A DNA stretch of 44,708 nt from Betaproteobacteria bacterium (GTDB lineage: Bacteria > Pseudomonadota > Gammaproteobacteria > Burkholderiales > CAIKXV01): assembly GCA_947457885.1 (NCBI GenBank), contig CANGXU010000011.1, positions 1 through 44,708 on the forward strand, read 5' to 3'. This document shows positions 2,038 through 37,506 of this stretch, in pieces. Under the pieces are notes generated by a model. It did no database searches. It worked only from the letters and a program-made list of their open reading frames with translations, and was not told where the DNA came from. A program made the translations under genes and the position numbers. Each line of letters begins with the position of its first letter. Position 1 is the stretch's first letter.

Positions 2038-3009
2038 ATGAATGCGTGCTGCAAGCGTGTGTTGCCCCTGTTGCTCGTCGCTGCATCGGCCGGCGCGGCC
2101 GCACAGCAGTACCCGTCCAAGCCGGTGCGCGTGGTCATCGGCTTCGCCGCCGGCGGCAGCGTGGACCTGGTCGGGCGCACGGTGGCCCAGGCGCTCGCGG
2201 GCGCATACGGCCGGCCGGTCGTGGTGGACAACCGGCCGGGTGCGGCGAGCCATATCGCGGGGGCACTCGTCGCCGCGTCGATCCCCGATGGCTACACGCT
2301 GCTGGTCAGCAGCCAGGGCGGCCTTGGCACGAACCTCGCGCTGTACACGAAGATGCCGTACAACCCGCTCAAGGACCTGACCCCGGTCACGCTGCTGGTG
2401 TTCCAGCCGCAGGTCGTCCTCGTCAACCCGAAGGTCGAGGCACGCAACATCAAGGAGCTGATCGCCCTCGCGCGCGCGAAGCCGGGCGGGCTCAACTACG
2501 GCTCGGCCGGTTCCGGTGGCGTGCTGCACCTCGCTGCCGAACTGTTCAGCAGCATGACCGGCACGAAGATGACGCACATCGCCTACAAGGGTGGCGCACC
2601 GGCGCTGGTCGACCTGATCGGCGGCCAGATCGACCTTACCTTCCAGCCGCTGCCCGAGGCACTGCCGCACCTGAAGAGCGGGCGCGTGCGGGCGCTGGCG
2701 ATGACCAGTGCCAGGCGCTCGGCCTCGGCGCCGGACATCCCTACCGTGATCGAGTCCGGACTGCCCGGGTTCACCTTCACCAGCTGGATGGGCGCTGCAG
2801 GGCCGGCCGGCATGCCTGCCGCGCTGACGGCGCAGATCAGCGCCGACTGGAACAAGGCGCTGAACGCACCCGAAGTGCGGCCACGCCTGATCGAAGCCGG
2901 ACTCGACATCGCCGGCGGCACCCCGGAGCAATTCGCCGCGCACATGCGCAGCGAAGTCGACGCGATGATGAAGCTCGTGAAGGAATCCGGCATTCCTCCA
3001 GTCGAGTAG
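2038..3009 (+). CDS. Bug/TctC-family periplasmic solute-binding receptor
   Basis: A 323-residue extracytoplasmic receptor of the tripartite tricarboxylate transporter (TTT) family, which delivers carboxylates or similar small molecules to TctAB-type permeases. It starts with a signal peptide (about residues 1-22, cut after AAAQQ). Family marks follow: YPSKPVRVVIGF after the signal, the DNRPGAAS loop, INYGS-like NYGSAGSGG, and HIAYKGGAPALVDL near the middle. The length is normal for the family. The gene is 11 bases behind the acyl-CoA synthetase and is followed by a strong terminator. No TctA/TctB gene is adjacent, so it must use a permease elsewhere, or it acts as a sensor, as some Bug proteins do. 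Confidence 0.93.
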   Translation: MNACCKRVLPLLLVAASAGAAAQQYPSKPVRVVIGFAAGGSVDLVGRTVAQALAGAYGRPVVVDNRPGAASHIAGALVAASIPDGYTLLVSSQGGLGTNLALYTKMPYNPLKDLTPVTLLVFQPQVVLVNPKVEARNIKELIALARAKPGGLNYGSAGSGGVLHLAAELFSSMTGTKMTHIAYKGGAPALVDLIGGQIDLTFQPLPEALPHLKSGRVRALAMTSARRSASAPDIPTVIESGLPGFTFTSWMGAAGPAGMPAALTAQISADWNKALNAPEVRPRLIEAGLDIAGGTPEQFAAHMRSEVDAMMKLVKESGIPPVE

Positions 3010-3016
3010 CCGACAT

Positions 3017-3049
3017 CCGGGTCTGACCCCGGGGTCAGACCCGGGTTTT
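3017..3049 (+). terminator. Perfect palindromic terminator between convergent genes
   Basis: The arms 3017-3030 (CCGGGTCTGACCCC) and 3031-3044 are exact reverse complements with no spacer, followed by G and TTTT (3046-3049). It ends the plus-strand Bug gene (stop at 3009); the converging Bug gene ends at 3057. The minus side lacks a T-run, so termination should be best for plus-strand transcripts. The GGTCTGACCCC core resembles dispersed palindromes that I recall from proteobacterial genomes. Confidence 0.7.
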
Positions 3050-3056
3050 GCATGGC

Positions 3057-4040
3057 CTACTCGGTCGGTATGCGGGCCTCGCGGATGGTCTGCCGCCAGC
3101 GCTTCAGTTCGGATTCGATCATCCGATGGAACTGGCCGGGGGCCTGCGCGGCGGGTTCGAGGCCGGTCGCCTGCAGCCGCTCGCGCACGTCGGTCGTGGA
3201 CATCGCACGACCGACCTCATCAAACAGCCTTTGCACCACCGCCTTCGGCGTGGCCGACGGCGCCACGATGCCGTACCAGTTCGTGACCACCACGTCGTAG
3301 CCGAGTTCGGTCATCGATGGCACCTCGGGCAGCGCCGCGCTTCGTTTCACGGAGGTCACCGCGAGCGGACGCAGCCGTTTGTTCTGCACGAACGGCAGCG
3401 AACCGCCCATGCCGATGAAGGTGCCCTGGATCTGGCCGGCGACCGTATCGTTCACCGCCGGGCCGCCGCCCTTGTACGGGATGTGGTTGAGATCGAGCCC
3501 CGCCCTGAGCTTGAACAGCTCGAGGGTCAGGTGCAGCCCGCCGCCGTTGCCCGACGAGCCGATGTTCAGCTTGCCCGGCTGTGCCCTGGCCAGCGCGACG
3601 AAATCCTTGAGGGTCGCGGCGGGCACCGTGGGGTTCACCATCAGTATGTACGGCGTCTCGGCAACCAGCGCAACGCCGGTGAAAGCCTTCACCGGATCGG
3701 CCGGTGGCTGCTTCACGAAGTAGGCAGGGTTGATCGTGAGCGCGAGGTCGGCGAGCAGCAGCGTGTAGCCATCGCCGGCAGCGCGCGCGACCACGTCGGT
3801 GCCTAGCATGCTCGCGGCACCCGGCCGGTTGTCGACCACGACCGACTGCGCGATCAACTCGGAAAGCTTCTGGCCGATGATGCGGCCGGTGACGTCGGAT
3901 CCGCCACCCGGCGCGAACGGTACGACCAGGCGGATCGGGCGGCTTGGCCAGGCATCGGCTGCGATCGCCGGCGTGGCGGGCATAGCCGCCATCGCAAGCA
4001 GCAGCGGGAGCAGCGGTGCGGTCGGACGCTTCGTGTTCAT
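3057..4040 (-). CDS. Bug/TctC-family periplasmic solute-binding receptor
   Basis: A 327-residue TTT-type receptor. I place the start at the ATG at 4040 (MNTKRPTAPLLPLLLA), because this puts a normal signal peptide (cut after AIAAD, about residue 27) at the N terminus; the frame stays open upstream to 4112 but adds no signal-like sequence. Family marks are WPSRPIRLVVPFAPGG, the loop DNRPGAASMLG, and HIPYKGGGPAVNDTV. It is the last gene of a minus-strand group behind the AcuI-like reductase (85-base gap). That pairing hints at uptake of a short acid whose CoA ester passes through acrylyl-CoA or a related enoyl-CoA, but this is inference. Confidence 0.92.
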   Translation of the reverse strand: MNTKRPTAPLLPLLLAMAAMPATPAIAADAWPSRPIRLVVPFAPGGGSDVTGRIIGQKLSELIAQSVVVDNRPGAASMLGTDVVARAAGDGYTLLLADLALTINPAYFVKQPPADPVKAFTGVALVAETPYILMVNPTVPAATLKDFVALARAQPGKLNIGSSGNGGGLHLTLELFKLRAGLDLNHIPYKGGGPAVNDTVAGQIQGTFIGMGGSLPFVQNKRLRPLAVTSVKRSAALPEVPSMTELGYDVVVTNWYGIVAPSATPKAVVQRLFDEVGRAMSTTDVRERLQATGLEPAAQAPGQFHRMIESELKRWRQTIREARIPTE

Positions 4041-25222: not shown

Positions 25223-26251
25223 CTACTTCTGACGGGCCCGAACCAGGCCGGCCTCCAGGAACACCGGGTACATCGCCGCGTCCTCGGCCACCAGCCGCTT
25301 CGCGGTGTCGGCGCGGTTCAGCGGCTCTACGATGAAGCCTGCCGCGCGTGCCTTCTCGATGAATCCCTTGTCGCGCATCGTCTCGAGCAACCTCGCCTCG
25401 AGGATGGCGAGCCGGTCGGCTGGCGTTCCCCGGGGTGCTGCGATGTAGCGCCAGGTACCGGCGATGAAGTCGATGCCCTGCTCGCGGAACGTCGGCACGT
25501 CGGGCAGCAGGAAATGGCGCTGGGCCCCGGCAATCGCGAGGCTGCGCGCAGCACCCGACTTGTGGTGCTGCGAGATGTCCGGCGCCGGCACGGTCGCCGA
25601 GTCGATCTCACCCGAGAGCAGCGCCTGCACGGTCGGCGCAAACCCGGCGTAGGCGATCTTGTTGATCTTTGCCCCGATGGTGCGCTCCATCAGGGACGCT
25701 GCCACATGCGAAGAACCGCCCGGCTGGTCATTGCCATTGCGCAGCTTGCCGGGGCTCGCCTTCGCCGCAGCGACGTAGTCGGCGAGGGTCTTGATGCTGG
25801 TCTTCGCACCGATGGACAGCACCACCGGGTCATCGCCGAAGAAGGCGATCGGCTCGAAGTCGGACAACGCGTTCGCGTTCGGGTTGTTGTATTGCGCGAA
25901 CACGGCGCCCGTGGCCACCATGGCGATCGTGTAGCCATCCGGCCTGGACGACGCCATCTCCTTCAGTCCGATGGTGCCGCCGGCGCCCGGCTTGTTGACC
26001 ACCACCATGGGCTGGCCCATGCGCTTCGACGCCGCATCCGCGACCAGGCGCATCGCGATGTCGCTGCCGCCGCCGGGCGGCCACGGTACGATCATGGTGA
26101 TCGGCTGCGACGGGAAGGCCTGGGCCATCGCGGAGGGCAGCGCGATGACTGCGCATCCGGCGGCCAGTGCCGCGGCCATCGTGCGTCGGACGGCTGCGAG
26201 GCGGCGGTGGCGTCGATGGGTCGAGGAACGGCTGCATTCGAGGCTGTTCAC
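25223..26251 (-). CDS. Bug/TctC-type receptor of the tctBA operon
   Basis: A receptor of about 342 residues and the likely cognate partner of TctBA. I choose the GTG at 26251, which follows GGGAGAGC at good spacing; the ATG at 26284 overlaps the LLM gene stop by 4 bases but lacks a ribosome site and adds 11 residues. The signal peptide has a long arginine-rich n-region (HRRHRRLAAVRR) and ends at AMAQA. After FPSQPITMIVPWPPGGGSDIAMRL comes VNKPGAGGTIGL. It is divergent from the other five Bug proteins: the usual NYGSSG segment reads RNGNDQPGGSSH and the pocket strand reads KIAYAGFAPTVQAL, so it probably binds a different ligand. Confidence 0.9.
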   Translation of the reverse strand: MNSLECSRSSTHRRHRRLAAVRRTMAAALAAGCAVIALPSAMAQAFPSQPITMIVPWPPGGGSDIAMRLVADAASKRMGQPMVVVNKPGAGGTIGLKEMASSRPDGYTIAMVATGAVFAQYNNPNANALSDFEPIAFFGDDPVVLSIGAKTSIKTLADYVAAAKASPGKLRNGNDQPGGSSHVAASLMERTIGAKINKIAYAGFAPTVQALLSGEIDSATVPAPDISQHHKSGAARSLAIAGAQRHFLLPDVPTFREQGIDFIAGTWRYIAAPRGTPADRLAILEARLLETMRDKGFIEKARAAGFIVEPLNRADTAKRLVAEDAAMYPVFLEAGLVRARQK

Positions 26252-26280: not shown

Positions 26281-27276
26281 TCATGCTAGCGCGAATTCGC
26301 GGATCACCGCCAGCGACTCGCTGCGATCCGATTCGGTGCCGGTCAGGTAGAGCACCGGCTCGGTCACCCCGGCATCGATGTAGTCCTGCAGGCGGCGCGC
26401 ACAGCGCTTGCGGTCGCCCCACACCGCGAACGCCTCGACCGCGGCCTCCGGCACCAGCCGCGTGGCTTCGTCCATGTCGCGCCGGGAAACCGCGTCGATG
26501 ATCGCTTCCTGGTCGATCGGGATGCCCGAATGGGCGATGCCATCGTCGATGTAGCGGTTGCGCAGCACAAAGGCGAGCTTGGTACGGCTCTTCTGCATCG
26601 CGTCGCGCTCGTCCTTCGAGGCGACGAAGAAGATGTAGGCGGCCTTGCGCACCGACGCCGGGTCGCGCCCGGCAGCGGTGGCACCCTCGTCCACCAGCGC
26701 GTAGGAAGCCTTTACGAATTCAGCGGACAGGCCGGCAGACAGCACCGCGCCGTCCGCCGACTTTCCGGCAAAGCGCAGCATCTGCTCCTTCATCGGGGCG
26801 AGGTAGACCGGTATCGGCTGCGGCGGCCGGAACATCATGCGGGCACCGGCGAGCTTGTGCAGCATCGCCTCGGGCTGCTGCACCGGCTCGCCCGACCAGA
26901 GGCCACGCAGGGCCGCGAGATACTCGCGGTTGGCCACCAGCGGCTTCTCGAGCTTGAGCCCGGCCTCGGCGAGGAACAGCGGGTTGCCGACACCGATGGC
27001 GATCGCGACGCGACCGGGCGCGGCTTCGGCAAGCGTCGCCATCGCCATCGCGAGCGGCACCGGATTGCGCAGGAACGGGCTGATGGCGGTGGGCACCACC
27101 GTGGCACGCTGCGTGGCCATCGCGAATGCCATGCAGGAGGTGAGCGGATCGCGATACCCGAGGTGCTCGGCCATCCAGAAGCTGGAAGCGCCGGCCGCCT
27201 CGGCCTCGCGCGCGGTGTCGAGGGATTCGCCGAAGGTAGAGAATCCGTCGAAGCTGATGCCGATATCTACTGTCAC
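26281..27276 (-). CDS. LLM-class oxidoreductase, candidate F420-dependent enzyme
   Basis: A 331-residue TIM-barrel enzyme of the luciferase-like monooxygenase class, nearest in layout to the Mer-like F420-dependent branch (methylene-tetrahydromethanopterin reductase relatives). Members use either F420H2 or FMNH2. Seen: IGISFDGFSTFGESLDTAREAE, FWMAEHLGYRDPL, ISPFLRNPVPLAMAMATLAE, GRVAIAIGVGNP and PPQPIPVYLAPMKEQMLRFAG. Sequence alone does not settle the cofactor, but a whole F420 operon lies 4.6 kb away and no other LLM protein is in the window, so F420 is the better guess. The start is GTG at 27276. It lies 22 bases behind the opine-dehydrogenase-like gene and before the Bug receptor. Confidence 0.9.
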   Translation of the reverse strand: MTVDIGISFDGFSTFGESLDTAREAEAAGASSFWMAEHLGYRDPLTSCMAFAMATQRATVVPTAISPFLRNPVPLAMAMATLAEAAPGRVAIAIGVGNPLFLAEAGLKLEKPLVANREYLAALRGLWSGEPVQQPEAMLHKLAGARMMFRPPQPIPVYLAPMKEQMLRFAGKSADGAVLSAGLSAEFVKASYALVDEGATAAGRDPASVRKAAYIFFVASKDERDAMQKSRTKLAFVLRNRYIDDGIAHSGIPIDQEAIIDAVSRRDMDEATRLVPEAAVEAFAVWGDRKRCARRLQDYIDAGVTEPVLYLTGTESDRSESLAVIREFALA

Positions 27277-27298: not shown

Positions 27299-28384
27299 TC
27301 AACCGCGGACCCGGCGCAGCAGCGCTGCCCGGTCCATGCCCTCGATGCCCATCGTCGTCGCGGTGCGCCCGGCCGCCGCGAAATCCGTGCCAGTCAGCGC
27401 GCCACCGAGGCGGTAGAGCGCCTCGGCGACCGGAGTCGGTACGCCTGCGATCCGTGCCAGTTCGATGAACGGCAGCAGCCCGTGCCCGAAGTCTTCACGG
27501 TAGTAGCGGTGTTCGAGCGAATCGGGCGCACGGATGCGGCGGTTGGCTTCGCCGCTGGCGATCGCGTTCAGCAGGTCGTCGGTATCGGTGACCCAGGGTT
27601 CGACCGTACCGTAGCGCTGCATCTCGGCTGCCACGCCGGGCAGCGCATGCCCGAAGGCCGCCGCCACCGCGATGCGTTCGGCATCGAGCTGGCGCATCAC
27701 CCGGATGACACCGGGCGTCATGCCCTGCACGTAGAACGTGAAGTCACCACGGGTCGCCTCGACCCACGCTGCGCCGAGTACCGCGCCGGGCGCATGCAGC
27801 ACCATGTTGAGGTTGGACAGGCTGGAGTCGAGCACGTCGCCGACGCGCTGCGCGACCGGGTAGAGCACGGTCGCGGCAGCCGCCGCGGCCTCGCCGCCGG
27901 GGAGTACGCCCAGGCGCAGGAATTTCGCACGGCCGGTGATCGTCACCCGCGCCGGCTGGTACTTGCGCGCGATGTACGACAGCGTATGGAACTCCGCGAC
28001 CGGCGGTATCGCCCCCCCGCTCGCCACGGCATACGCATGCGAGAACTCGAGCGCGCCGCCGGTATGGCCGGGATTGAGCACGACCGGCAGCCGGTGCGCA
28101 CCGGCTCGCGCCAGGTCGCGCGCCACGGCCACATGGGACAGCGTCGGCAGGCATACCAGCGCGACATCCGCACCGTCGATCGCGTGCCCGATGTCCGCGG
28201 TCATCAGGCCCGGCTCGGCGAAGCCTTCGCCAAGCACGCCTTCATACTCGACGCCGCCGCGTGCGATGAACGGTTCCAGCGTGCGCTCGGAGCGGTTCCA
28301 AAGGCTGACCCTGTGTCCCGCCAGCGTCACCTCGGCGACGGCCGCCGCACCTCCGGCACCAGCCCCGATCACGGCCACGTGCAT
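27299..28384 (-). CDS. NAD/NADP octopine/nopaline dehydrogenase-family protein
   Basis: A 361-residue protein with an N-terminal Rossmann domain (MHVAVIGAGAGGAAAVAEV, then HRVSLWNRSE) and the helical C-terminal domain typical of opine dehydrogenases (SNLNMVLHAPGAVLGAAWVE; later the DFGHGLLPFIELARIAGVPTP segment). The family reductively condenses an amino acid with a 2-oxo acid or does the reverse; related proteins act as general 2-oxo or hydroxyacid dehydrogenases. The ATG at 28384 follows GGGAGG at 8 bases. It lies 49 bases behind the Rieske ferredoxin and 22 before the LLM gene. The substrate is unknown; in this operon it may release an amine or oxidise an alcohol. Confidence 0.9.
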   Translation of the reverse strand: MHVAVIGAGAGGAAAVAEVTLAGHRVSLWNRSERTLEPFIARGGVEYEGVLGEGFAEPGLMTADIGHAIDGADVALVCLPTLSHVAVARDLARAGAHRLPVVLNPGHTGGALEFSHAYAVASGGAIPPVAEFHTLSYIARKYQPARVTITGRAKFLRLGVLPGGEAAAAAATVLYPVAQRVGDVLDSSLSNLNMVLHAPGAVLGAAWVEATRGDFTFYVQGMTPGVIRVMRQLDAERIAVAAAFGHALPGVAAEMQRYGTVEPWVTDTDDLLNAIASGEANRRIRAPDSLEHRYYREDFGHGLLPFIELARIAGVPTPVAEALYRLGGALTGTDFAAAGRTATTMGIEGMDRAALLRRVRG

Positions 28385-28433: not shown

Positions 28434-28742
28434 TCACGCCTGCACCAGCACGCGCCCGCCATCGACGCGCACCGGATAGACCTTCAGGTCGATGGTGCAC
28501 GGCGCGGTCAACGCACGACCGGTGCGGATGTCGAACAGGCCACTGTGGATCGGGCATTCGATCTTGCCGTCGGTGATGAAACCATCGGCCAGGCTCGCCG
28601 ACGCATGGGTGCACCGATCGTGCGTGGCGAACACCTCGCCGTCCAGGTTGTACAGGCAGACCTGCTCGCCCTCGACGCGCACCAGAAGGGTGCCGTCTTC
28701 CGGCACGTCGCCGTGCGCGCATACGTCGATCCACTCCCTCAT
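28434..28742 (-). CDS. Rieske-type ferredoxin (small electron carrier of an oxygenase)
   Basis: A 102-residue cytoplasmic [2Fe-2S] protein that passes electrons to a Rieske oxygenase. The cluster ligands are all present: Cys44 and His46 (RCTHASAS), Cys63 and His66 (ECPIHSGLF). The start is the ATG at 28742 behind GGGGAAG; the frame stays open to 28901, over the divergent promoter region, without coding value. It is the first gene of the minus-strand operon and stands back to back with the oxygenase genes (146-base gap). No ferredoxin reductase gene is found nearby, so the electron donor is unknown. Confidence 0.95.
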   Translation of the reverse strand: MREWIDVCAHGDVPEDGTLLVRVEGEQVCLYNLDGEVFATHDRCTHASASLADGFITDGKIECPIHSGLFDIRTGRALTAPCTIDLKVYPVRVDGGRVLVQA

Positions 28743-28789
28743 CAATCTTCCCCCGCCGTCTTCCAGGTGTAAGCCCAAAGGCGACAAAC

Positions 28790-28795
28790 AGGATA
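28790..28795 (-). promoter_or_regulatory. Candidate -10 box of the ferredoxin operon
   Basis: On the minus strand this reads TATCCT, 48 bases before the ferredoxin ATG. No good -35 box is found at 16-18 bases. Transcription from here would start near 28784, which places the palindrome TGTGATCACA about 43 bases upstream, a position usual for an activator. Confidence 0.3.
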
Positions 28796-28822
28796 CACGA
28801 CGGAAGGCTGGAAGCGCCGGCC

Positions 28823-28832
28823 TGTGATCACA
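28823..28832. promoter_or_regulatory. Palindrome TGTGATCACA, candidate operator (copy 1)
   Basis: A perfect 10-base palindrome (12 with the flanking C and G) at the centre of the divergent gap between the Rieske ferredoxin and oxygenase operons. An identical 10-mer occurs at 31782, upstream of the F420 operon, and I found no third copy. On the plus strand it overlaps the -35 region for the TACATT-like -10 box TACGAT at 28850-28855. The GT-N-AC style symmetry would suit a GntR-like or similar dimeric regulator; no regulator gene lies in the cluster. Confidence 0.6.
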
Positions 28833-28849
28833 GTCCGGGCCATTCCATG

Positions 28850-28855
28850 TACGAT
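28850..28855 (+). promoter_or_regulatory. Candidate -10 box (TACGAT) of the oxygenase operon
   Basis: TACGAT lies 33 bases before the oxygenase start at 28889; the same hexamer occurs at 31843 before fbiC. The -35 region at 17 bases coincides with the palindrome at 28823-28832 instead of a TTGACA-like box, as expected for a regulated promoter. Confidence 0.35.
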
Positions 28856-28888
28856 CGTGCGCTTGAAACCCGTGCGGAGGCAGTCCCG

Positions 28889-30145
28889 ATGAACACTCCA
28901 TCCCCGGTCGAGACCGACGGCATGTTCCGATGGCCCGACGAAGGGCTGGCCCGCGTGCCGTTCCGGGTCTACAACGACCCGCAGATCGCCGAGGCCGAGC
29001 AGAAGCTGCTGTTCCAGGGCGAGACCTGGAACCTGGTCTGCCTCGACCTCGAGGTCTCCGAACCCGGCCAGTACCGCACCAACTGGATCGGCGAGACGCC
29101 AGTGATCGTGGTGCGCGACCCGGTGGCCGACCGCATACGGGTCTTCGTGAACCGCTGCGTGCACCGTGGCTCGATGCTCTGTCTCGAGCAGCACGGCAAG
29201 GCGGAGAACTTCACCTGCATGTACCACAACTGGGTATACAGCCTCGACGGCAAGCTGCAGAGCATCGCGTTCAAGCGTGGCGTGCGCGGCCAGGGCGGCA
29301 TGCCGGCCGACTTCGACATCACGAAGCACGGGCTGCGCGAGCTGCGCGTCGACACCATCCGGAACCTGGTGTTCGCGACCTTCTCCGACCAGCTGCCGCC
29401 GGCCGCCGACTGGTTCGGCCCGCGCATGGTCTGGAGCCTGGAGCGCTTCTTCCACAAGCCGATACGGCTGATCGGTGGCTACACCCAGGTGCTGCCCAAC
29501 AACTGGAAGCTCTACGCCGAGAATGTCCGCGATTCGTACCACGCGAGCCTGCTGCACACCTTCTTCGCCACCTTCGGCGTGAACCGGCTGTCGATGGACG
29601 GTGCGGTCGAGGTGAACGAGGCCGGCGGCTCGCACCTGAGCTGGTCGAAGATGGCCACCGACGACGCCGAAGGCACCGACTACGCGTCCGGCGGCCTGCG
29701 CTCGATGCGCGACCTGGCGATCGAGGACCGGCGGCTGCTCAAGACCTGGCCCGAGTTCCCCGACGGCATCACGCACATGATCCAGACGCTGTTCCCGAAC
29801 GTGTTCCTGCAGCAGATCCAGAACACGCTCGCCGTGCGCCTGCTGGTGCCGCGCGGCCTCGACCGATGCGACCTGCAGTGGTGGGTGTTCGCCTACGAAG
29901 ACGACACGCCGGAACAGCTGCGCATGCGGTTGATGCAGAGCAACCTGGTCGGGCCGGCCGGGCTGGTCTCGCTGGAGGATGGCTTCATCGGCAACGCGGT
30001 ACAGCGCACCACCCGCGGCGACCAGGGCCACGGTGCGATCGTCGAGATGGGTGGCCATGGCGTAGGCACCGAACGGCAAAGCCGCGTGTCGGAGGCTGCG
30101 GTACGCGGGTTCTGGCAGCAGTGGCGCGGACTGATGGGATTCTGA
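28889..30145 (+). CDS. Aromatic-ring-hydroxylating (Rieske) oxygenase, alpha subunit
   Basis: A 418-residue catalytic subunit that uses O2 and two electrons to hydroxylate an aromatic or related ring. The ATG at 28889 follows GGAGG by 8 bases; an ATG at 28847 in the same frame lacks a ribosome site. Rieske cluster ligands: Cys90, His92 (RCVHRGS), Cys110, His113 (TCMYHNW). The mononuclear iron site has ENVRDSYHASLLH with bridging Asp215 and ligands His218 and His223, and EDGFIGNAVQR supplies the probable third ligand. This layout fits the large group of benzoate/toluate-, salicylate- or anthranilate-type oxygenases; the substrate is not readable. The beta subunit follows after 2 bases. Confidence 0.95.
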   Translation: MNTPSPVETDGMFRWPDEGLARVPFRVYNDPQIAEAEQKLLFQGETWNLVCLDLEVSEPGQYRTNWIGETPVIVVRDPVADRIRVFVNRCVHRGSMLCLEQHGKAENFTCMYHNWVYSLDGKLQSIAFKRGVRGQGGMPADFDITKHGLRELRVDTIRNLVFATFSDQLPPAADWFGPRMVWSLERFFHKPIRLIGGYTQVLPNNWKLYAENVRDSYHASLLHTFFATFGVNRLSMDGAVEVNEAGGSHLSWSKMATDDAEGTDYASGGLRSMRDLAIEDRRLLKTWPEFPDGITHMIQTLFPNVFLQQIQNTLAVRLLVPRGLDRCDLQWWVFAYEDDTPEQLRMRLMQSNLVGPAGLVSLEDGFIGNAVQRTTRGDQGHGAIVEMGGHGVGTERQSRVSEAAVRGFWQQWRGLMGF

Positions 30146-30147
30146 GC

Positions 30148-30669
30148 ATGGCGACCACGATGGGTTACACCGCAGCCGACCGCGAGTTCCTGCTCGCCGC
30201 CGGGCAGGCATGCACCGACTGTGCCGGTGCGATCGACGACGACAACCTCGAGGCCTGGCCCGACTACTTCTCGGAAGACTGTCTGTACCGGGTCGAGACG
30301 CGCGAAGGACGTGCGAACGGCTGGCAGATCGGGCTGATGCATTGCGAAGGTCGGGGCATGCTGCGCGACCGCGTCCTGGCGATCCGGCATGGCAACGTGT
30401 TCGATCCCCACACTTACCGCCACGTGCTGTCGATGCCGCGCTTCGCGCCGGCCGCGCCCGACAGCGATGGCACGGAGTTTGCATCTGCACGGAGGGTACT
30501 GACCAGCTTCAACGTGACCCGGGTAATGAAGACCGGCGAGACAACGCTGTTCGCGGTCGGAACCTACGACGATCTGTTCGTCGAAGCCGAAGGCCGGTTG
30601 CTGATCCGCAGCCGCACGGTGGTCCTGGATTCGCGCAACCTCGACACGCTGCTGGTCATCCCGCTCTGA
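30148..30669 (+). CDS. Aromatic-ring-hydroxylating oxygenase, beta subunit
   Basis: A 173-residue structural subunit with the SnoaL/NTF2-like cone fold that caps alpha in alpha3beta3 oxygenases. Characteristic are the acidic start EAWPDYFSEDCLYRV, the conserved IRHGNVFDPHTYRHVLS with arginine and tyrosine-histidine pairs, and the closing GRLLIRSRTVVLDSRN. The ATG at 30148 lies 2 bases after the alpha stop. The frame is open far upstream inside alpha (to 28930) but only this part resembles a protein. Together with alpha and the ferredoxin it makes a nearly complete three-component system lacking a reductase. Confidence 0.95.
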   Translation: MATTMGYTAADREFLLAAGQACTDCAGAIDDDNLEAWPDYFSEDCLYRVETREGRANGWQIGLMHCEGRGMLRDRVLAIRHGNVFDPHTYRHVLSMPRFAPAAPDSDGTEFASARRVLTSFNVTRVMKTGETTLFAVGTYDDLFVEAEGRLLIRSRTVVLDSRNLDTLLVIPL

Positions 30670-30683
30670 GGAGAAACCGTTCC

Positions 30684-31712
30684 ATGCCCGCCGCCGCAGC
30701 CCTGCCGTACACCAGGCCCGTTCATCCGAGACTCGCGCTGGCGGCAGGTACCGCAGCCGCGCTGTCGCTGTTCATGCTGGCGGGGCCGGCGCAGCCAGCC
30801 GAGCGTCCCTCCGGCTACCCGGCCCAGCCGGTGCGGCTGGTGGTGCCGTTCCCGCCGGGGGGCACCAGCGACATCGTCGCGCGGGTAATCGGCCAGCGGC
30901 TGTCGACGACGGTGGGGCAGCGCTTCGTGGTCGAGAACAGACCCGGCGCCGGTGCGGCCATCGGTATCGTCGCGGTGACCTCGGCCAGCCCCGACGGGCA
31001 CACGCTGCTCCTCGGGGCCGCCGGCCCGCTGACGATGAGTCCGCACATGGGCAAGGTTCCCTATGTCGTCGACCGCGACCTCGCACCGATCGCGTTGATC
31101 ACGGCGGTGCCCAACATCGCGGTGGTGCACCCCAGCGTGCCGGCGAAGACGCTGGCCGACATGGTGAAGCTGGTCAATGCCCGCCCCGGCAGCGTGAGCT
31201 TCGGCTCGGCCGGACAGGGCACGACTGCCCACCTGTCCGGCGAGCTGTTCCGCACGTTGGCCGGCGCACAGATGATCCACGTCCCATACAAGGGCACCTC
31301 GGCTGCGGTCGCTGACCTCGTCGGCGGCCAGATCGACATGCTGATCGACAACCTTCCCGGAGTACTGCCGCAGGTGCGAGCAGGCAAGCTGCGCGCGCTG
31401 GCGCTGACCAGCCCGATACGTTCGAAGGCTGCGTCGGACGTGCCCTCGGCCGGCGAGGCCGGCATGAAGGACCTGATCGTCAGTGGCTGGTTCGGGTTCC
31501 TGTCGCCGGCGAAGACTCCGGCACCGGTCAACGACTGGCTGGCGCAGGAGATGATCGCCGCCGCCCGGGTGCCCGAGGTGCAGGCACAGCTCGCCGACCT
31601 CGGCGGCGAGCTCGACCTGAAGGGCCCGGCGGAGTTCCGCACCTACCTGCGCGTCGAGTTCGAGCGCTGGGGAAAGATCATCGCCGCTGCGAAGCTGGCG
31701 ATACCGCAGTAG
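30684..31712 (+). CDS. Bug/TctC-family periplasmic receptor of the oxygenase operon
   Basis: A 342-residue TTT receptor, third gene of the plus-strand oxygenase operon, 14 bases after the beta subunit, with ribosome site GAGGAGA overlapping that stop. The signal peptide spans about residues 1-40 (LALAAGTAAALSLFMLAGPA, cut near QPAER). Family marks: YPAQPVRLVVPFPPGGTSD, ENRPGAGAAIG, VSFGSAGQGTTAHLSGEL and HVPYKGTSAAVADL. Its place with the oxygenase suggests that it binds the oxygenase's growth substrate or a related acid, and it could feed the TctBA permease encoded on the divergent operon. The stop is followed by 165 bases before fbiC without a clear terminator, so read-through is possible. 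Confidence 0.94.
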   Translation: MPAAAALPYTRPVHPRLALAAGTAAALSLFMLAGPAQPAERPSGYPAQPVRLVVPFPPGGTSDIVARVIGQRLSTTVGQRFVVENRPGAGAAIGIVAVTSASPDGHTLLLGAAGPLTMSPHMGKVPYVVDRDLAPIALITAVPNIAVVHPSVPAKTLADMVKLVNARPGSVSFGSAGQGTTAHLSGELFRTLAGAQMIHVPYKGTSAAVADLVGGQIDMLIDNLPGVLPQVRAGKLRALALTSPIRSKAASDVPSAGEAGMKDLIVSGWFGFLSPAKTPAPVNDWLAQEMIAAARVPEVQAQLADLGGELDLKGPAEFRTYLRVEFERWGKIIAAAKLAIPQ

Positions 31713-31781
31713 ACGGGGCCGGGCGGTCAGGCGTCACGCTCGTGCGGCCGCAGGGCCCAAGGCCCGGTCAATGCAGCCAGG

Positions 31782-31791
31782 TGTGATCACA
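31782..31791. promoter_or_regulatory. Palindrome TGTGATCACA, candidate operator (copy 2)
   Basis: An exact copy of the palindrome at 28823, also followed by G, placed 87 bases before the fbiC start in the 165-base gap behind the Bug gene. A TACGAT -10-like box lies at 31843-31848 with TTGGGA at 31822-31827 (15-base spacer, short of ideal). The palindrome would sit upstream of that promoter, where an activator binds. Sharing the site with the oxygenase operons suggests one regulon. Confidence 0.6.
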
Positions 31792-31877
31792 GATGCACGT
31801 TCGCCAGCCTGTGCGGCGGGCTTGGGAATGGTCGATTCGGGTTACGATAGCTGTAGACCCTGCAGAGGCAGCAAGCC

Positions 31878-34412
31878 TTGTCCACGACCGAAGACCCGAT
31901 CCGCCTGCTGACCCGCCTGGTCGCCGAGTCCAGCGCGGCCGCAGGTCCGGCGCGCGCCGCCGCGGCAACCGCCGAGATGCTCGAGCGTGCACGTGCGCTG
32001 CGCGATGTCGGCCACGGCCGACGCATCACGTACTCGCGCAAGGTCTTCATACCGCTGACCCGCCTTTGCCGGGATGTCTGCCACTACTGTACGTTCGCCA
32101 CCGTACCGCACGCGCTGCCGGCACCGTTCCTGTCCGAGGCGGAAGTGCTGGCGATCGCGCGCGCCGGTCGCGACGCCGGCTGCGACGAGGCGCTCTTCAC
32201 GCTCGGCGACAAGCCGGAGCTGCGCTGGCCGGAGGCCAGGGTCTTCCTCGACCGTGCGGGCCATGAGACCACCATCGACTACCTCGCCGCGATGTGCCGG
32301 CGAGTGCTCGACGAAACCGGCCTGCTGCCTCACGCCAACCCGGGCGTGATGTTGCCTGCGGACATCGCGAAGCTGCGCCGGGTCAGCGTGTCGCAGGGAC
32401 TGATGCTCGAGTCGAGCGCCCAGCGGCTGTGCGAACGCGGTGGCCCGCACTTCGGCTCCCCCGACAAGGCGCCTGCAGCGCGGCTGGCGACCCTCGCCGC
32501 TGCGGGCGAACTGCAGGTGCCGTTCACCAGCGGCATTCTGATCGGCATCGGCGAGACCCGTGAAGAGCGCCTCGACGCGCTGCTCGCGCTGCGTGCCCTG
32601 CACATTGAACACGGCCACCTGCAGGAAGTGATCGTGCAGAACTTCCGCGCCAAGCCGCGCACCGCGATGGCCGGTGCACCGGATGCCGGACTCGGCGAGC
32701 TCGCCTGGACGATCGCGCTGGCGCGCCTGGTCTTCGGTCCATCGATGAACATCCAGGCGCCACCCAACCTGAGCCCAGGCGAAGCGCGTACGCTGATCGA
32801 TGCCGGCATCAACGACTGGGGCGGCGTGTCCCCGGTCACGCCCGACCATGTGAACCCCGAGGCGCCCTGGCCGACCGTCGCGGCGCTGCGCGAGGCCACC
32901 GCAGACGCCGGCTTCCGGCTGGTCGAGCGGCTCGCCGCCTACCCTGCGTGGTGCATGCAGCCGGCGCGATGGTTCGACGAGCAGGTACGGCCGGCCCTGC
33001 TGCACCGGATGGACACCGAGGGCCTCGCCCGCAGCGACAACTGGTCCGCAGGGCGCACCGGCCCGGTGCCGTCGATCGACGGCGAAGGCACGGCAGCGCA
33101 CGCCTCGTCGCGGCCGGCGATCGTCGAGCGCGGCATTGCCGACGCGCTGGCCTCGGTACGGCGCGGCGATCCGCTGCACGAGGTGCAGATGGTGCGACTG
33201 TTCTCGGCTCGCGATGGCGAGGTGGCCGATGTCGCAGCCGCCGCCGACGAACTGCGCCGCGCGCGCAACGGCGATGCAGTGAGCTACGTGGTGAACCGCA
33301 ACATCAACTACACCAATGTCTGCCACTACGGCTGCCGCTTCTGCGCGTTCTCGAAAGGGCGGCACAGCGCGCAGCTGCGCGGCCCGGCCTACGACCTTGA
33401 CGATGGCGAGATCGCACGCCGGGTCTCCGAGGCGTGGGCGCGCGGTGCCACCGAAGTCTGCATGCAGGGCGGCATCCATCCCGATTACACCGGCGACACC
33501 TACCTGCACATCCTGCGCGTGGCGAAGGAGGCCGCCCCCGGCATCCATGTGCATGCGTTCTCGCCGCTCGAAGTCAGCCACGGTGCGGCCACGCTCGGCC
33601 TGTCGCTCGACACCTTTCTCGGACGCCTGCGCGATGCCGGGCTGGGCACCCTGCCCGGCACCGCCGCCGAGATCCTCGACGACGAGGTGCGAGACGCACT
33701 CTGCCCCGACAAGCTGCGCACCGCGCAGTGGCTCGACGTGATGGCCGCGGCGCACCGCGTCGGGCTGCGGTCGACGGCGACGATCATGTTCGGCCACCTC
33801 GAGCGCAGCGAACACTGGGCGCGCCACCTGCTGCGCATCCGCGCGCTGCAGGAGCGTACCGGCGGCTTCACCGAGTTCGTGCCGCTGCCGTTCATCCACA
33901 TGGAGGCGCCGGTGTACCTCAAGGGACGTGCACGGCCGGGGCCGACCTGGCGCGAGGCGCTGCTGATGCATGCGGTCGCCCGTCTGGCGCTCGCCCCTGC
34001 CATCGGCAACATCCAGTGCTCCTGGGTGAAGCTCGGTCCCGAGGGCGTGCGCGCCGCGCTCGGTGCCGGCGTCAACGACCTCGGCGGCACGCTCATGAAC
34101 GAAAGCATCTCGTTCGCCGCTGGCAACCAGCATGGCCAGGAACTGGCTCCACCGCAGATGGAAGCGCTCGTGCGCCTTGCCGGGCGCACGCCGGTACAAC
34201 GCACGACCACCTACGGCGAGGTACCGGCCGAACGCGTATCCGCAGCATGGGCGGCACAACCACTGTTGCCGGTCGTGCAGACACCATTGCGCCCGCGCAG
34301 CCGGGCAGCGCGGGCGCAGAACCTTCCGGCCCATGCGTCTGCGCCATCGGCGACAATCGCGACCTCCCGCGGCCTGGCCGCAACTCACACAGCGACGACC
34401 ACTGACGCATGA
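31878..34412 (+). CDS. fbiC: FbiC, FO synthase (CofG-CofH fusion) of coenzyme F420 synthesis
   Basis: An 844-residue fusion of two radical-SAM enzymes that together make 7,8-didemethyl-8-hydroxy-5-deazariboflavin (FO), the chromophore of F420, from tyrosine and a riboflavin precursor. The CofG half comes first: cluster motif Cys64-x3-Cys68-x2-Cys71 (CRDVCHYC). The CofH half follows, with Cys482-x3-Cys486-x2-Cys489 (CHYGCRFC) after NRNINYTN. This order and length match actinobacterial FbiC. The last ~60 residues are a low-complexity Ala/Arg/Thr tail with no counterpart I know. The start is a TTG at 31880 side (31878) behind AGAGG. The stop overlaps npdG by 4 bases (ATGA). It opens the F420 operon. 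Confidence 0.96.
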   Translation: MSTTEDPIRLLTRLVAESSAAAGPARAAAATAEMLERARALRDVGHGRRITYSRKVFIPLTRLCRDVCHYCTFATVPHALPAPFLSEAEVLAIARAGRDAGCDEALFTLGDKPELRWPEARVFLDRAGHETTIDYLAAMCRRVLDETGLLPHANPGVMLPADIAKLRRVSVSQGLMLESSAQRLCERGGPHFGSPDKAPAARLATLAAAGELQVPFTSGILIGIGETREERLDALLALRALHIEHGHLQEVIVQNFRAKPRTAMAGAPDAGLGELAWTIALARLVFGPSMNIQAPPNLSPGEARTLIDAGINDWGGVSPVTPDHVNPEAPWPTVAALREATADAGFRLVERLAAYPAWCMQPARWFDEQVRPALLHRMDTEGLARSDNWSAGRTGPVPSIDGEGTAAHASSRPAIVERGIADALASVRRGDPLHEVQMVRLFSARDGEVADVAAAADELRRARNGDAVSYVVNRNINYTNVCHYGCRFCAFSKGRHSAQLRGPAYDLDDGEIARRVSEAWARGATEVCMQGGIHPDYTGDTYLHILRVAKEAAPGIHVHAFSPLEVSHGAATLGLSLDTFLGRLRDAGLGTLPGTAAEILDDEVRDALCPDKLRTAQWLDVMAAAHRVGLRSTATIMFGHLERSEHWARHLLRIRALQERTGGFTEFVPLPFIHMEAPVYLKGRARPGPTWREALLMHAVARLALAPAIGNIQCSWVKLGPEGVRAALGAGVNDLGGTLMNESISFAAGNQHGQELAPPQMEALVRLAGRTPVQRTTTYGEVPAERVSAAWAAQPLLPVVQTPLRPRSRAARAQNLPAHASAPSATIATSRGLAATHTATTTDA

Positions 34413-35101
34413 ACGATACTGCCCCCCCCTCCTTCTCCCCCCTCTCGATCGCCGTGCTCGGTGGCTCCGGCAAGGAAGGCTCTGGTCTCGCGTTCCGCTG
34501 GGCACATGCCGGACACAACGTGACGATCGGCTCGCGCGACCCGGCGAAGGCCGTCGCAGCTGCCGCCGAACTCGACACGCTGCTGGCTGGACGGGCGACG
34601 GTGAACGGTAGCGACAACCTGTCCGCCGCAAGGACGGCGCAGGTGGTCGTACTCGCCGTTCCTTATGCCGCGCAGCGCGAGACGGCGATGTCGGTGCGGG
34701 ATGCACTCGAAGGAAAGGTGCTGGTCGACGTGACAGTGCCACTGGCGCCGCCGAAGGTGGATCGCGTGCAGCTTCCGGGCGCAGGCTCGGCGGTACAGCA
34801 GTTGCAGGCGGATCTGGGCGCAGGCGTGAAGGTCGTGTCGGCATTCCAGAACGTGTCGGCGGTACACCTGAAGGATCCCTCGCACCCGATCGACTGCGAC
34901 GTGCTGGTCTGCGGCGACGATGCGGATGCGCGCGAGCTGGTAGTCGGGCTCGCACGCGACGCCGGCATCGCGGCCTGGCATGCCGGAGTGCTCGCGAATT
35001 CCGCGGCCAGCGAGGCGCTGACCTCGGTGCTGATCGCGATCAACAAGCGCTACAGGATTCCCGGCTCGGGCATCCGCATCACGGGCCTGCCGCGGCCCTG
35101 A
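34409..35101 (+). CDS. npdG: NADPH:F420 oxidoreductase (Fno/NpdG)
   Basis: A 230-residue enzyme that moves hydride between NADPH and F420. The N-terminal Rossmann fold reads IAVLGGSGKEGSGLAFRWA and is followed by VTIGSRDPAKA, whose serine and arginine after the second strand suit the NADPH 2'-phosphate. VVVLAVPYAAQ and KVVSAFQNVSAVHL are family segments. In a bacterium its usual task is to regenerate F420H2 from NADPH, as in nitroaromatic degraders. It overlaps fbiC by 4 bases, which ties F420 synthesis to F420 reduction; a 51-base gap without a ribosome site leads to cofE. Confidence 0.92.
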   Translation: MNDTAPPSFSPLSIAVLGGSGKEGSGLAFRWAHAGHNVTIGSRDPAKAVAAAAELDTLLAGRATVNGSDNLSAARTAQVVVLAVPYAAQRETAMSVRDALEGKVLVDVTVPLAPPKVDRVQLPGAGSAVQQLQADLGAGVKVVSAFQNVSAVHLKDPSHPIDCDVLVCGDDADARELVVGLARDAGIAAWHAGVLANSAASEALTSVLIAINKRYRIPGSGIRITGLPRP

Positions 35102-35152: not shown

Positions 35153-35905
35153 ATGCCGTCGCTGACCCTCACTGCGCTCGAAGGCATGCCGGAAGTCGTC
35201 GCGGGGGACGACCTTGCACGGCTGGTACGGGACGCACTGGCACGCAGCCGCATCCGCTCAGCCGACGGCGACGTGCTGGTCGTCGCGCAGAAAGTGGTGT
35301 CGAAGAGCGAAGGTCGCCGGGTCGCCCTGTCGAGCGTCGAGCCGTCGGCGCGCGCTCGGGAACTCGCGGTCGTCACGCGCAAGGATCCCAGGCTGATCGA
35401 GCTCGTGCTGCGCGAGTCGGTCGACGTACTGCGGGCGAACCGTGACGTGATCGTCGTCGAACACCGCCGTGGCTGGATCATGGCCAACGCCGGCATCGAC
35501 ATGTCGAACGTGGATGCCGGGGGCGAACATGTGCTGCTGCTGCCGGAAGATCCCGATGCGAGCTGCAGGGCGCTGCGCGCAGCGCTCGCCGACGTCGCCG
35601 ACTTCGGCGTGATCGTCAACGACAGTTTCGGTCGCGCCTGGCGCAACGGCGTCACCGGCACGGCGCTCGGTGTCGCCGGGTTACCCGGCGTGGTCGACCT
35701 GCGTGGCAGGCGCGACCGATTCGGCCGTGAGCTCCGGACCACCGAGGTCGCGATCGCAGACGAACTCGCCGCGGCAGCCTCGCTGCTGATGGGCCAGGCC
35801 GACGAGGGCCGCCCGGTGATCCATGCTCGCGGTGTTCCCTACGACCGGCGCGACGGTAACGGCCGCGAGCTGCTGCGGCCGAAATCCATGGACATGTTCC
35901 GCTGA
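35153..35905 (+). CDS. cofE: CofE, coenzyme F420-0:L-glutamate ligase
   Basis: A 250-residue GTP-dependent ligase that adds the first gamma-linked glutamates to F420-0. Family segments are all visible: VVAQKVVSKSEGR near the start, MANAGIDMSNVDAGGEHV and VNDSFGRAWRNGVTGTALGV, the metal and nucleotide regions of CofE. It is a single-domain protein; it lacks the C-terminal FMN-reductase-like domain of mycobacterial FbiB, which extends the tail and reduces dehydro-F420-0. So either the tail stays short, or another protein does those steps. The stop shares one base with the cofD start (TGATG). Confidence 0.95.
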   Translation: MPSLTLTALEGMPEVVAGDDLARLVRDALARSRIRSADGDVLVVAQKVVSKSEGRRVALSSVEPSARARELAVVTRKDPRLIELVLRESVDVLRANRDVIVVEHRRGWIMANAGIDMSNVDAGGEHVLLLPEDPDASCRALRAALADVADFGVIVNDSFGRAWRNGVTGTALGVAGLPGVVDLRGRRDRFGRELRTTEVAIADELAAAASLLMGQADEGRPVIHARGVPYDRRDGNGRELLRPKSMDMFR

Positions 35906-36852
35906 TGATCCTCGCGCTCGCGGGTGGTGTCGGCGGCGCCCGGATGGCTCAGGGCCTGGTGCAGGTCCTCGGTGCCGATGAGCTCGCGATCGTGGTCAAC
36001 GTCGGCGACGACTTCGAGCACCTCGGGCTCCATGTGTCGCCCGACCTCGACACGGTGATGTACACGCTGGGCGGGGTGCACAACCCCGAGACCGGCTGGG
36101 GCCGCGCCGGCGAGACGTGGAACTTCCTCGATGCGCTGGGCGCGATCGGCGGAGACAGCTGGTTCAGACTCGGCGATCGCGACCTCGCGGTGCATGTCGA
36201 GCGCACCCACCGGCTGCGATCGGGCGAGCGACTGTCGGGCATCACCGCCGACCTCTGCCGTGCCTTCGGCATCCGGCACCCGGTGATCCCGGCCACCGAC
36301 GACCGGCTGCGTACCTTCGTCGATACCGACGAAGGCGAACTGGCGTTCCAGGACTATTTCGTTCGCCGGCGCTGCGAACCCGTGGTGCGCGGCTTCCGCT
36401 TCGATGGCGCGTCGACCGCCCGCATCGCAGCGCCGCTGGCGGCACTGCACGGCAGCCCTGCGCGCATAGCGGGCATCGTGCTCTGCCCGTCCAACCCGTG
36501 GCTGAGCGTCGCACCCATGCTGGCGCTGCCCGCCATCGCCGCGCTGCTCGACGCGCCGGACATTCCCGTCGTTGCGGTATCGCCGATCGTCGGCGGTGCG
36601 GCGGTCAAGGGTCCGGCGGACAAGATCATGCGCGAACTGGGCCATGCGGTCGACGTATCGGGGGTGGTCGCGCACTACGGTGCGCGCGTGGACGGCTGGG
36701 TGATCGACGAGCGCGACCGCAGCCACGCCGGGGCGATCGCCGCGGCGGGCCATGGCGTCTGCGTGACCGACACCATGATGACCACTCCGGCACGCTCGGC
36801 CGCGCTCGCACTCGAGGCGATCGACCTGCTGCGCACGCTGGGCCGACGCTGA
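35905..36852 (+). CDS. cofD: CofD, 2-phospho-L-lactate transferase (F420-0 forming)
   Basis: A 315-residue enzyme that transfers the phospho-acid moiety from its guanosine-diphosphate carrier to FO, giving F420-0 or its dehydro/glycerate analogue. The opening ILALAGGVGGARMAQGL and the segment NVGDDFEHLGLHVSPDLDTVMYTLGG are diagnostic, together with PSNPWLSVAPML and SPIVGGAAVKGPADKI further on. The length is normal. It begins in the stop of cofE (TGATG overlap) and ends directly before the cofC start codon with no gap, so cofE, cofD and cofC should be translated in near-equal amounts. Confidence 0.96.
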   Translation: MILALAGGVGGARMAQGLVQVLGADELAIVVNVGDDFEHLGLHVSPDLDTVMYTLGGVHNPETGWGRAGETWNFLDALGAIGGDSWFRLGDRDLAVHVERTHRLRSGERLSGITADLCRAFGIRHPVIPATDDRLRTFVDTDEGELAFQDYFVRRRCEPVVRGFRFDGASTARIAAPLAALHGSPARIAGIVLCPSNPWLSVAPMLALPAIAALLDAPDIPVVAVSPIVGGAAVKGPADKIMRELGHAVDVSGVVAHYGARVDGWVIDERDRSHAGAIAAAGHGVCVTDTMMTTPARSAALALEAIDLLRTLGRR

Positions 36853-37506
36853 TTGGATACGCAGCAGGTGTGGACGATCGTGCCGGTCCGGGGGCTGGCC
36901 ACGGGCAAGACCCGGCTGGAGCCGGTGCTCGACGCCGATGGCCGCAGGCAGTTGTGCACGCACATGCTGCTCAACACGCTCGCTGCAGTCGAAGGGACGT
37001 TCGACGACCTCGGCCGTTGCATCGTGGTCAGTGCCGACCCGGCCGCACGCGCGACGGCGGCCGCGCGTGGCGCGCGCGTGGTCGGCGATCCGCCGGGTGC
37101 TGCGGCGGGCAGGACTCTGGATGCAGCGCTCGACGCAGCACGCGAAGTCGCCCGCGCAGCCGGGGCCCGGCAACTGCTGCTGATTTCCGCGGACATGCCG
37201 GACATCGATACGCATGCGCTGCGGGCGCTGCTGCAGGACACGCCGGACGGGGCGACCGTGCTGCTCGCAGACAAGTCCGGCAGTGGCACCAACGGCATGC
37301 TGCTCCCGGCCACCCTGCCGCTGCGGTTCGCCTTCGGCCCCGGCAGCCTGGACCGTCACGCGCGCGCGCTGGCAGCGTTCGGCGTCGATACAACCCGCTG
37401 CGGCGATCGAAGGCTCGCATTCGACATCGATACCCCCGCAGACCTGGATGCCTGGCAGCGGGCCGGCGGCCGGATACCGTGCCGCCCGACCCGCGCGGGC
37501 TGCTAG
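36853..37506 (+). CDS. cofC: CofC, phospholactate (or phosphoglycerate) guanylyltransferase
   Basis: A 217-residue nucleotidyltransferase that activates the F420 side-chain acid with GTP. The start is TTG at 36853, immediately after the cofD stop, and the protein reads VWTIVPVRGLATGKTRL, the nucleotide-binding N terminus of the family; SADMPDID is the metal-binding segment and GSGTNGMLL the substrate loop. In archaea CofC uses 2-phospho-L-lactate, in mycobacteria phosphoenolpyruvate, and in Mycetohabitans (Paraburkholderia) rhizoxinica 3-phospho-D-glycerate. Which of these applies here is open; the betaproteobacterial setting makes the last worth testing. It ends the operon, 25 bases from the converging asparaginase-like gene. 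Confidence 0.93.
   Translation: MDTQQVWTIVPVRGLATGKTRLEPVLDADGRRQLCTHMLLNTLAAVEGTFDDLGRCIVVSADPAARATAAARGARVVGDPPGAAAGRTLDAALDAAREVARAAGARQLLLISADMPDIDTHALRALLQDTPDGATVLLADKSGSGTNGMLLPATLPLRFAFGPGSLDRHARALAAFGVDTTRCGDRRLAFDIDTPADLDAWQRAGGRIPCRPTRAGC

Follow-up and report, generated by a model that had tools for sequence, protein, structure and literature searches.

A 10-bp palindrome as the probable operator of an FCD-type GntR repressor of scattered catabolic operons, among them F420 biosynthesis, in a betaproteobacterium

The palindrome TGTGATCACA, which occurs twice in the 44,708-nt stretch of DNA analysed here (the window), is best explained, and we think probably so, as the operator of an FCD-family GntR repressor acting on scattered catabolic operons that include F420 biosynthesis. 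Judged by sequence comparison, it is a real operator of a genome-wide regulon of about ten such operons, and its most likely owner is an FCD-type GntR of the VanR group encoded on another contig. The two exact copies lie at 28823-28832 (operator 1) and 31782-31791 (operator 2), both in non-coding DNA and both followed by G, just as a preliminary description had reported; its reading that the window holds no third copy was borne out as well, and one-mismatch copies are also absent. Exact copies are expected at 0.029 per window under a first-order Markov model and at 0.007-0.012 under higher-order models, which makes the earlier hand estimate of roughly 0.01 a fair one. The window contains 75 distinct palindromic 10-mers, 9 of whose 118 occurrences are intergenic, and TGTGATCACA is the sole one with two intergenic copies.

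Operator 1 sits inside a 146-bp gap (28743-28888) between divergent ferredoxin and oxygenase genes, all identified, like their neighbours, with Pfam and NCBIfam profiles. The leftward unit (minus strand) begins with a Rieske-type ferredoxin (28434-28742; Pfam Rieske at 73.7 bits, and Rieske_2) and continues with an octopine-dehydrogenase-like NAD(P) enzyme (27299-28384; Pfam Octopine_DH) and a luciferase-like (LLM) oxidoreductase (26281-27276; Pfam Bac_luciferase), which is possibly F420-dependent as among NCBIfam models it comes nearest to mer-type F420 enzymes, though below their cut-offs. A TctC-type receptor gene further downstream (25223-26179, minus strand), recognized from the gene call and its sequence, presumably belongs to the same operon. 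The rightward unit (plus strand) encodes the large subunit of a ring-hydroxylating dioxygenase (28889-30145; Pfam Rieske and Ring_hydroxyl_A; AndAc-like at 404 bits, below the equivalog cut-off of 750), its small subunit (30148-30669; Pfam Ring_hydroxyl_B; AndAd-like, below the cut-off) and a TctC-type solute receptor (30684-31712; Pfam TctC, 215 bits). The longest dioxygenase reading frame begins at 28847; we prefer the start at 28889 because of a conserved TACGAT at 28850 and a GGAGG preceding 28889. Operator 2 lies 70 bp 3' of this tctC gene and 87 bp 5' of the TTG start of fbiC, the bifunctional FO synthase (CofGH, 31878-34412; NCBIfam equivalog at 1145.8 bits, cut-off 1018). On the same plus strand follow an F420-dependent NADP oxidoreductase-like gene (34409-35101; Pfam F420_oxidored), cofE (F420-0:L-glutamate ligase, 35153-35905; TIGR01916), cofD (2-phospho-L-lactate transferase, 35905-36852; TIGR01819) and cofC (guanylyltransferase, 36868-37506; TIGR03552), so that fbiC, CofE, CofD and CofC of the biosynthesis operon all score above their equivalog cut-offs.

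The whole genome (a 4.03-Mb assembly of 289 contigs, 89.9% complete) contains ten exact copies of TGTGATCACA, and all ten are intergenic and precede catabolic operons, with genes at the surrounding loci called by a codon-usage script. Besides the two window promoters and a site on contig 40 in front of a GntR gene and a dehydrogenase, the targets are tctC receptor genes on contigs 82, 50, 33, 6, 222 and 221, together with a second dioxygenase (contig 221), an amidohydrolase and an M20 peptidase (contig 33) and a CoA-transferase (contig 222). Contig 221 carries a 19-bp pair of operators (1300-1328). Two adjoining inverted repeats of another type, TGTGAAATTCACA and TGTGAAG...CTTCACA, were seen between two genes on contig 82 (12871-12911). 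The reversed control word of TGTGATCACA has no copy in the genome; as it includes CTAG, a tetramer seldom met in bacterial DNA, this control was not relied on alone. The half-sites TGTGA and TCACA occur 10 times at spacer 0 and only 5 times over spacers 1-20 combined, which marks spacer 0 as special. Their resemblance to CRP half-sites could suggest that a CRP/FNR-type protein binds here, an idea we regard as highly improbable: CRP needs six bases between its half-sites, and TGTGA-N6-TCACA has no copy in the genome.

Across the genus we found 84 copies in 11 genomes totalling 45.9 Mb (1.8 per Mb), against 23 in 30 genomes drawn from the order's other families, most of which have two copies at most. 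In 482 kb of genus loci, none of 29 palindromes matched in base composition occurs even once, and 69 of the 78 copies of TGTGATCACA read in such loci are intergenic although the loci are 92% coding. Eight orthologous oxygenase promoters and six orthologous fbiC promoters all preserve the ten bases unchanged amid drifting flanks, and the genus sites have no conserved bases outside the ten, which sets the site at exactly 10 bp. That the repeats arose by chance, or reflect a GATC-centred signal for restriction or methylation, is barely credible: TGTGATCACA is a short word and TGATCA is a known restriction site, but neither reading accounts for its placement before catabolic genes, its restriction to spacer 0, its invariance in drifting promoters and its association with one regulator gene across many lineages (see below). 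A separate site before fbiC is missing from three genomes (G001, G005 and G008); there the gene begins 56, 4 and 99 bp after tctC, respectively, and is apparently part of the oxygenase operon. The oxygenase and fbiC are gone from G004, which keeps the ferredoxin, the octopine-dehydrogenase-like gene and the operator before the ferredoxin (L176, 2625-3008). One of the contigs assigned to the genus (L196, CAMDXD010000301.1), from a metagenome-assembled genome, bears the public title Bordetella parapertussis, a label that looks wrong. The preliminary description had tied specificity to rarity in the genome and to conservation before orthologous genes. The second holds for the oxygenase and fbiC genes; as to the first, ten copies in 4.03 Mb reach beyond the cluster, yet each lies between genes and ahead of a catabolic operon, which together with the ortholog conservation suggests the operator of a wider regulon rather than one private to the cluster.

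The only regulator gene found repeatedly beside TGTGATCACA in the genus is that of an FCD-type GntR, encoded outside the window on the minus strand of contig 40 (5373-6221, equivalent to 2374-3222 of locus L015). The site lies upstream of the GntR gene itself in six of seven genus orthologs (G000, the genome studied here, and G001, G002, G003, G006 and G010). In G010 there are two sites 31 bp apart (L105) and the neighbouring gene differs, being tctC. The seventh, G004, keeps the GntR with a degraded site in front of it, and its genome has only two exact sites. Among the genus genomes an ortholog was not found in G005, G007, G008 and G009. G005 has another gene at the GntR place and a single site, which is intragenic; such a near-complete joint absence is what would be expected of an owner and its sites. 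The earlier guess of a GntR-type regulator thus agrees with the FCD-type GntR of contig 40, and its proposal of one dimeric regulator for oxygenase, transporter and F420 genes alike is supported by the conserved footprints in the eight oxygenase and six fbiC promoters; it was incomplete in that the regulon appears to be genome-wide and the regulator is encoded on another contig.

It could be argued that the operator is real but belongs to another regulator, the contig 40 FCD-GntR being merely one more target. Three genomes in which the GntR gene was not found still have sites (6, 6 and 10 in G007, G008 and G009), most targets are tctC genes, and the neighbour of the GntR in G010 is itself a tctC. 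We consider this unlikely, since the contig ends at the expected GntR position in two of these three genomes (G007 and G008; G009 is without the locus) and the same 10-mer precedes GntR relatives with different neighbours in other families and classes. A HutC-type (UTRA) GntR, considered because known HutC-type operators also have GT-N4-AC, was rejected as owner: three such groups in the genus have conserved operators of their own (TTTGTCCGGACAAA and others), and just one isolated copy of TGTGATCACA, in G001 only, lies beside a UTRA-type GntR. A second FCD-GntR group present across the genus (contig 105 in this genome) was rejected too, with no TGTGATCACA near the gene.

These searches also brought out other candidate pairs. 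In most or all genus genomes a HutC-type GntR gene that adjoins an enolase-superfamily gene is preceded by a strictly conserved TTTGTCCGGACAAA (L160, L168, L167, L151, L157 and L158; contig 58 of this genome), which by its conservation appears to be a second clear operator-regulator pair. Two further UTRA-type groups (L144, L145, L152, L147 and L148; L169, L159 and L166) have the conserved candidate operators ACTCATCTATATGAAT and ATTGTCAAGATGATTGC.

Support for the FCD-GntR as owner extends well beyond the genus. In every one of nine named orthologs (L201-L209, 61-35% identity) from Betaproteobacteria, Nitratireductor, Rhizobiales, Pelagibacterium, Methylobacterium and Limimaricola, the GntR gene is preceded by a copy that is exact or has one mismatch, and five of them have two copies 13 bp apart (L202 at 5937/5950, L203 at 5808/5821, L204 at 5924/5937, and L206 and L207 at 5858/5871). 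In a genome from another family (G020, locus L107; 41% identity) the sole exact copy is found 110 bp before the GntR gene. Of ten class-wide relatives with 32-38% identity, nine likewise have a copy with at most one mismatch upstream of the gene, and the lineages with such a site before GntR relatives comprise other Beta-, Alpha- and Gammaproteobacteria; 22 loci of less related FCD-GntRs have no TGTGATCACA copy. Glutamine-synthetase-like and aldehyde dehydrogenase genes are frequent flanks among the class-wide relatives with readable neighbours, and in four loci from other Gammaproteobacteria (L212, L213, L214 and L216) the GntR relative and TGTGATCACA lie between two such genes. Relatives in this setting probably act in polyamine catabolism.

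The regulator combines an N-terminal GntR winged helix-turn-helix domain (PF00392, 44.5 bits, cut-off 27) with a C-terminal FCD domain (PF07729, 74.5 bits, cut-off 24.3). FCD proteins of the VanR group have six effector-domain helices and those of the FadR group seven (PMC7797058). The predicted model, which is of moderate confidence (pLDDT 61), has six (residues 116-260), the number of the VanR group, to which the protein would accordingly be assigned. Sequence and fold searches return McbR, PmiR, Atu1419 and other repressors of the VanR group, with FadR ranking far lower.

How the site lies relative to promoter elements bears on the direction of control. A conserved TTGACC-17-TAGTGT promoter precedes tctC on contig 82 and the orthologous genes, six genomes in all, and its last three bases are also operator bases; here the operator covers the probable start of transcription, lies 23 bp upstream of the start codon and has no other target on its far side. 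Joint scoring of -35 and -10 elements with the operator masked revealed five further unrelated promoters in which a -10-like hexamer, weak in two of them, ends on the first operator base, and other -10 offsets were found in at most two groups each at a lower threshold. Plain counting over all sites gave no single common -10 offset, and no match to the sigma-70 consensus turned up when the window promoters were scanned. Overlap of operator and -10 box, seen in six promoters unrelated to one another, is the geometry of a repressor site. In the oxygenase promoter, a putative -10 box TACGAT (28850-28855, plus strand; GTACGAT is conserved in six of eight genomes) would put operator 1 over the -35 region. 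At fbiC, the best -10 box, a putative TACGAT (31843-31848, plus strand) within a conserved GTACGATA or GTAGCATA, comes some 56 bp downstream of operator 2. The upstream position of this operator would suit an activator site, as would the divergent ferredoxin promoter, where the -35 is weak and a candidate -10 box lies some 37 bp from operator 1. Activation is nonetheless improbable in our view, given the -10 overlap in six unrelated promoters, the position 23 bp before the start codon of a single-target tctC gene, and the repressor role of the most closely related regulators studied that use sites of this kind (PMC7797058, PMC8249747).

We therefore favour repression, and infer it together with dimer binding, autoregulation and the existence of an inducer. 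Without inducer, a GntR dimer would occupy the 10-bp palindrome over or beside the promoter elements of about ten operons and block RNA polymerase, controlling its own gene as well. Binding of a small molecule to the FCD domain would release the repressor, leading to joint induction of uptake receptors, oxygenases and, in this organism, F420 biosynthesis. The unusual part is that F420 biosynthesis should be under a catabolic repressor, so that the supply of this rare cofactor seems to be turned on and off along with the degradation of certain nutrients. Taken to its full extent, with one FCD-GntR repressor over the uptake and oxygenase operons plus the complete F420 operon, F420 might be made in the genus only when substrate is present (cofactor on demand), a tentative proposal to which we give somewhat less than an even chance. 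If true, F420 synthesis in a betaproteobacterium would be conditional on a catabolic signal, unlike that of a cofactor in constant supply; the role of F420 in a betaproteobacterium is an open question (PMC8498797). For uncultured, mostly freshwater Betaproteobacteria rich in tctC-linked catabolic operons, the analysis supplies a regulator, an operator and a set of targets open to testing; a shared inducer of the operons would ease the finding of substrates. It also predicts TGTGATCACA as the operator of a widespread FCD-GntR branch, including the relatives beside glutamine-synthetase-like and aldehyde dehydrogenase genes.

In the literature searched, which leaves most subscription journals outside, TGTGATCACA was not recognized as a described operator: its occurrences were mainly non-bacterial by title, and the bacterial one was inside a cloning primer. 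TATGATCACA was likewise not recognized there as a regulator's operator, judged by title. The best match by both sequence and fold is McbR/YncC of Escherichia coli (PDB: 4p9f; E-value 4.9e-21, Foldseek E-value 5.1e-11), and the surroundings of E. coli mcbR contain no TGTGATCACA within two mismatches. NpdR of Rhodococcus, from picrate degradation, is reportedly a repressor controlling F420-linked genes inside a catabolic cluster; it is said to differ in belonging to the IclR family and in controlling genes that use F420, not the biosynthesis operon. E. coli RspR/YdfH is an FCD-GntR repressor whose target rspA belongs to the enolase superfamily, as does one conserved target here, but its operator is ATACnnGTAT with a single target (PMC8249747), and our GntR scores 90.2 bits against PRK11414, below the equivalog cut-off of 225. 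Atu1419 from Agrobacterium fabrum (PDB: 6z74, 6za3), an FCD-GntR of the VanR group, represses an aromatic-acid catabolic cluster via ATGTATACAT palindromes overlapping -10 boxes (PMC7797058). Both systems share a 10-bp palindrome on the -10 box and two copies at some promoters, and Atu1419 represses its own gene, as the GntR described here would. Atu1419, which is a tetramer, differs in its operator, ATGTATACAT instead of TGTGATCACA, and in its local one-cluster regulon, and the two proteins have about 19% identity in the fold alignment. Set against these systems, the operator, regulator and regulon are new and the mechanism is a known one.
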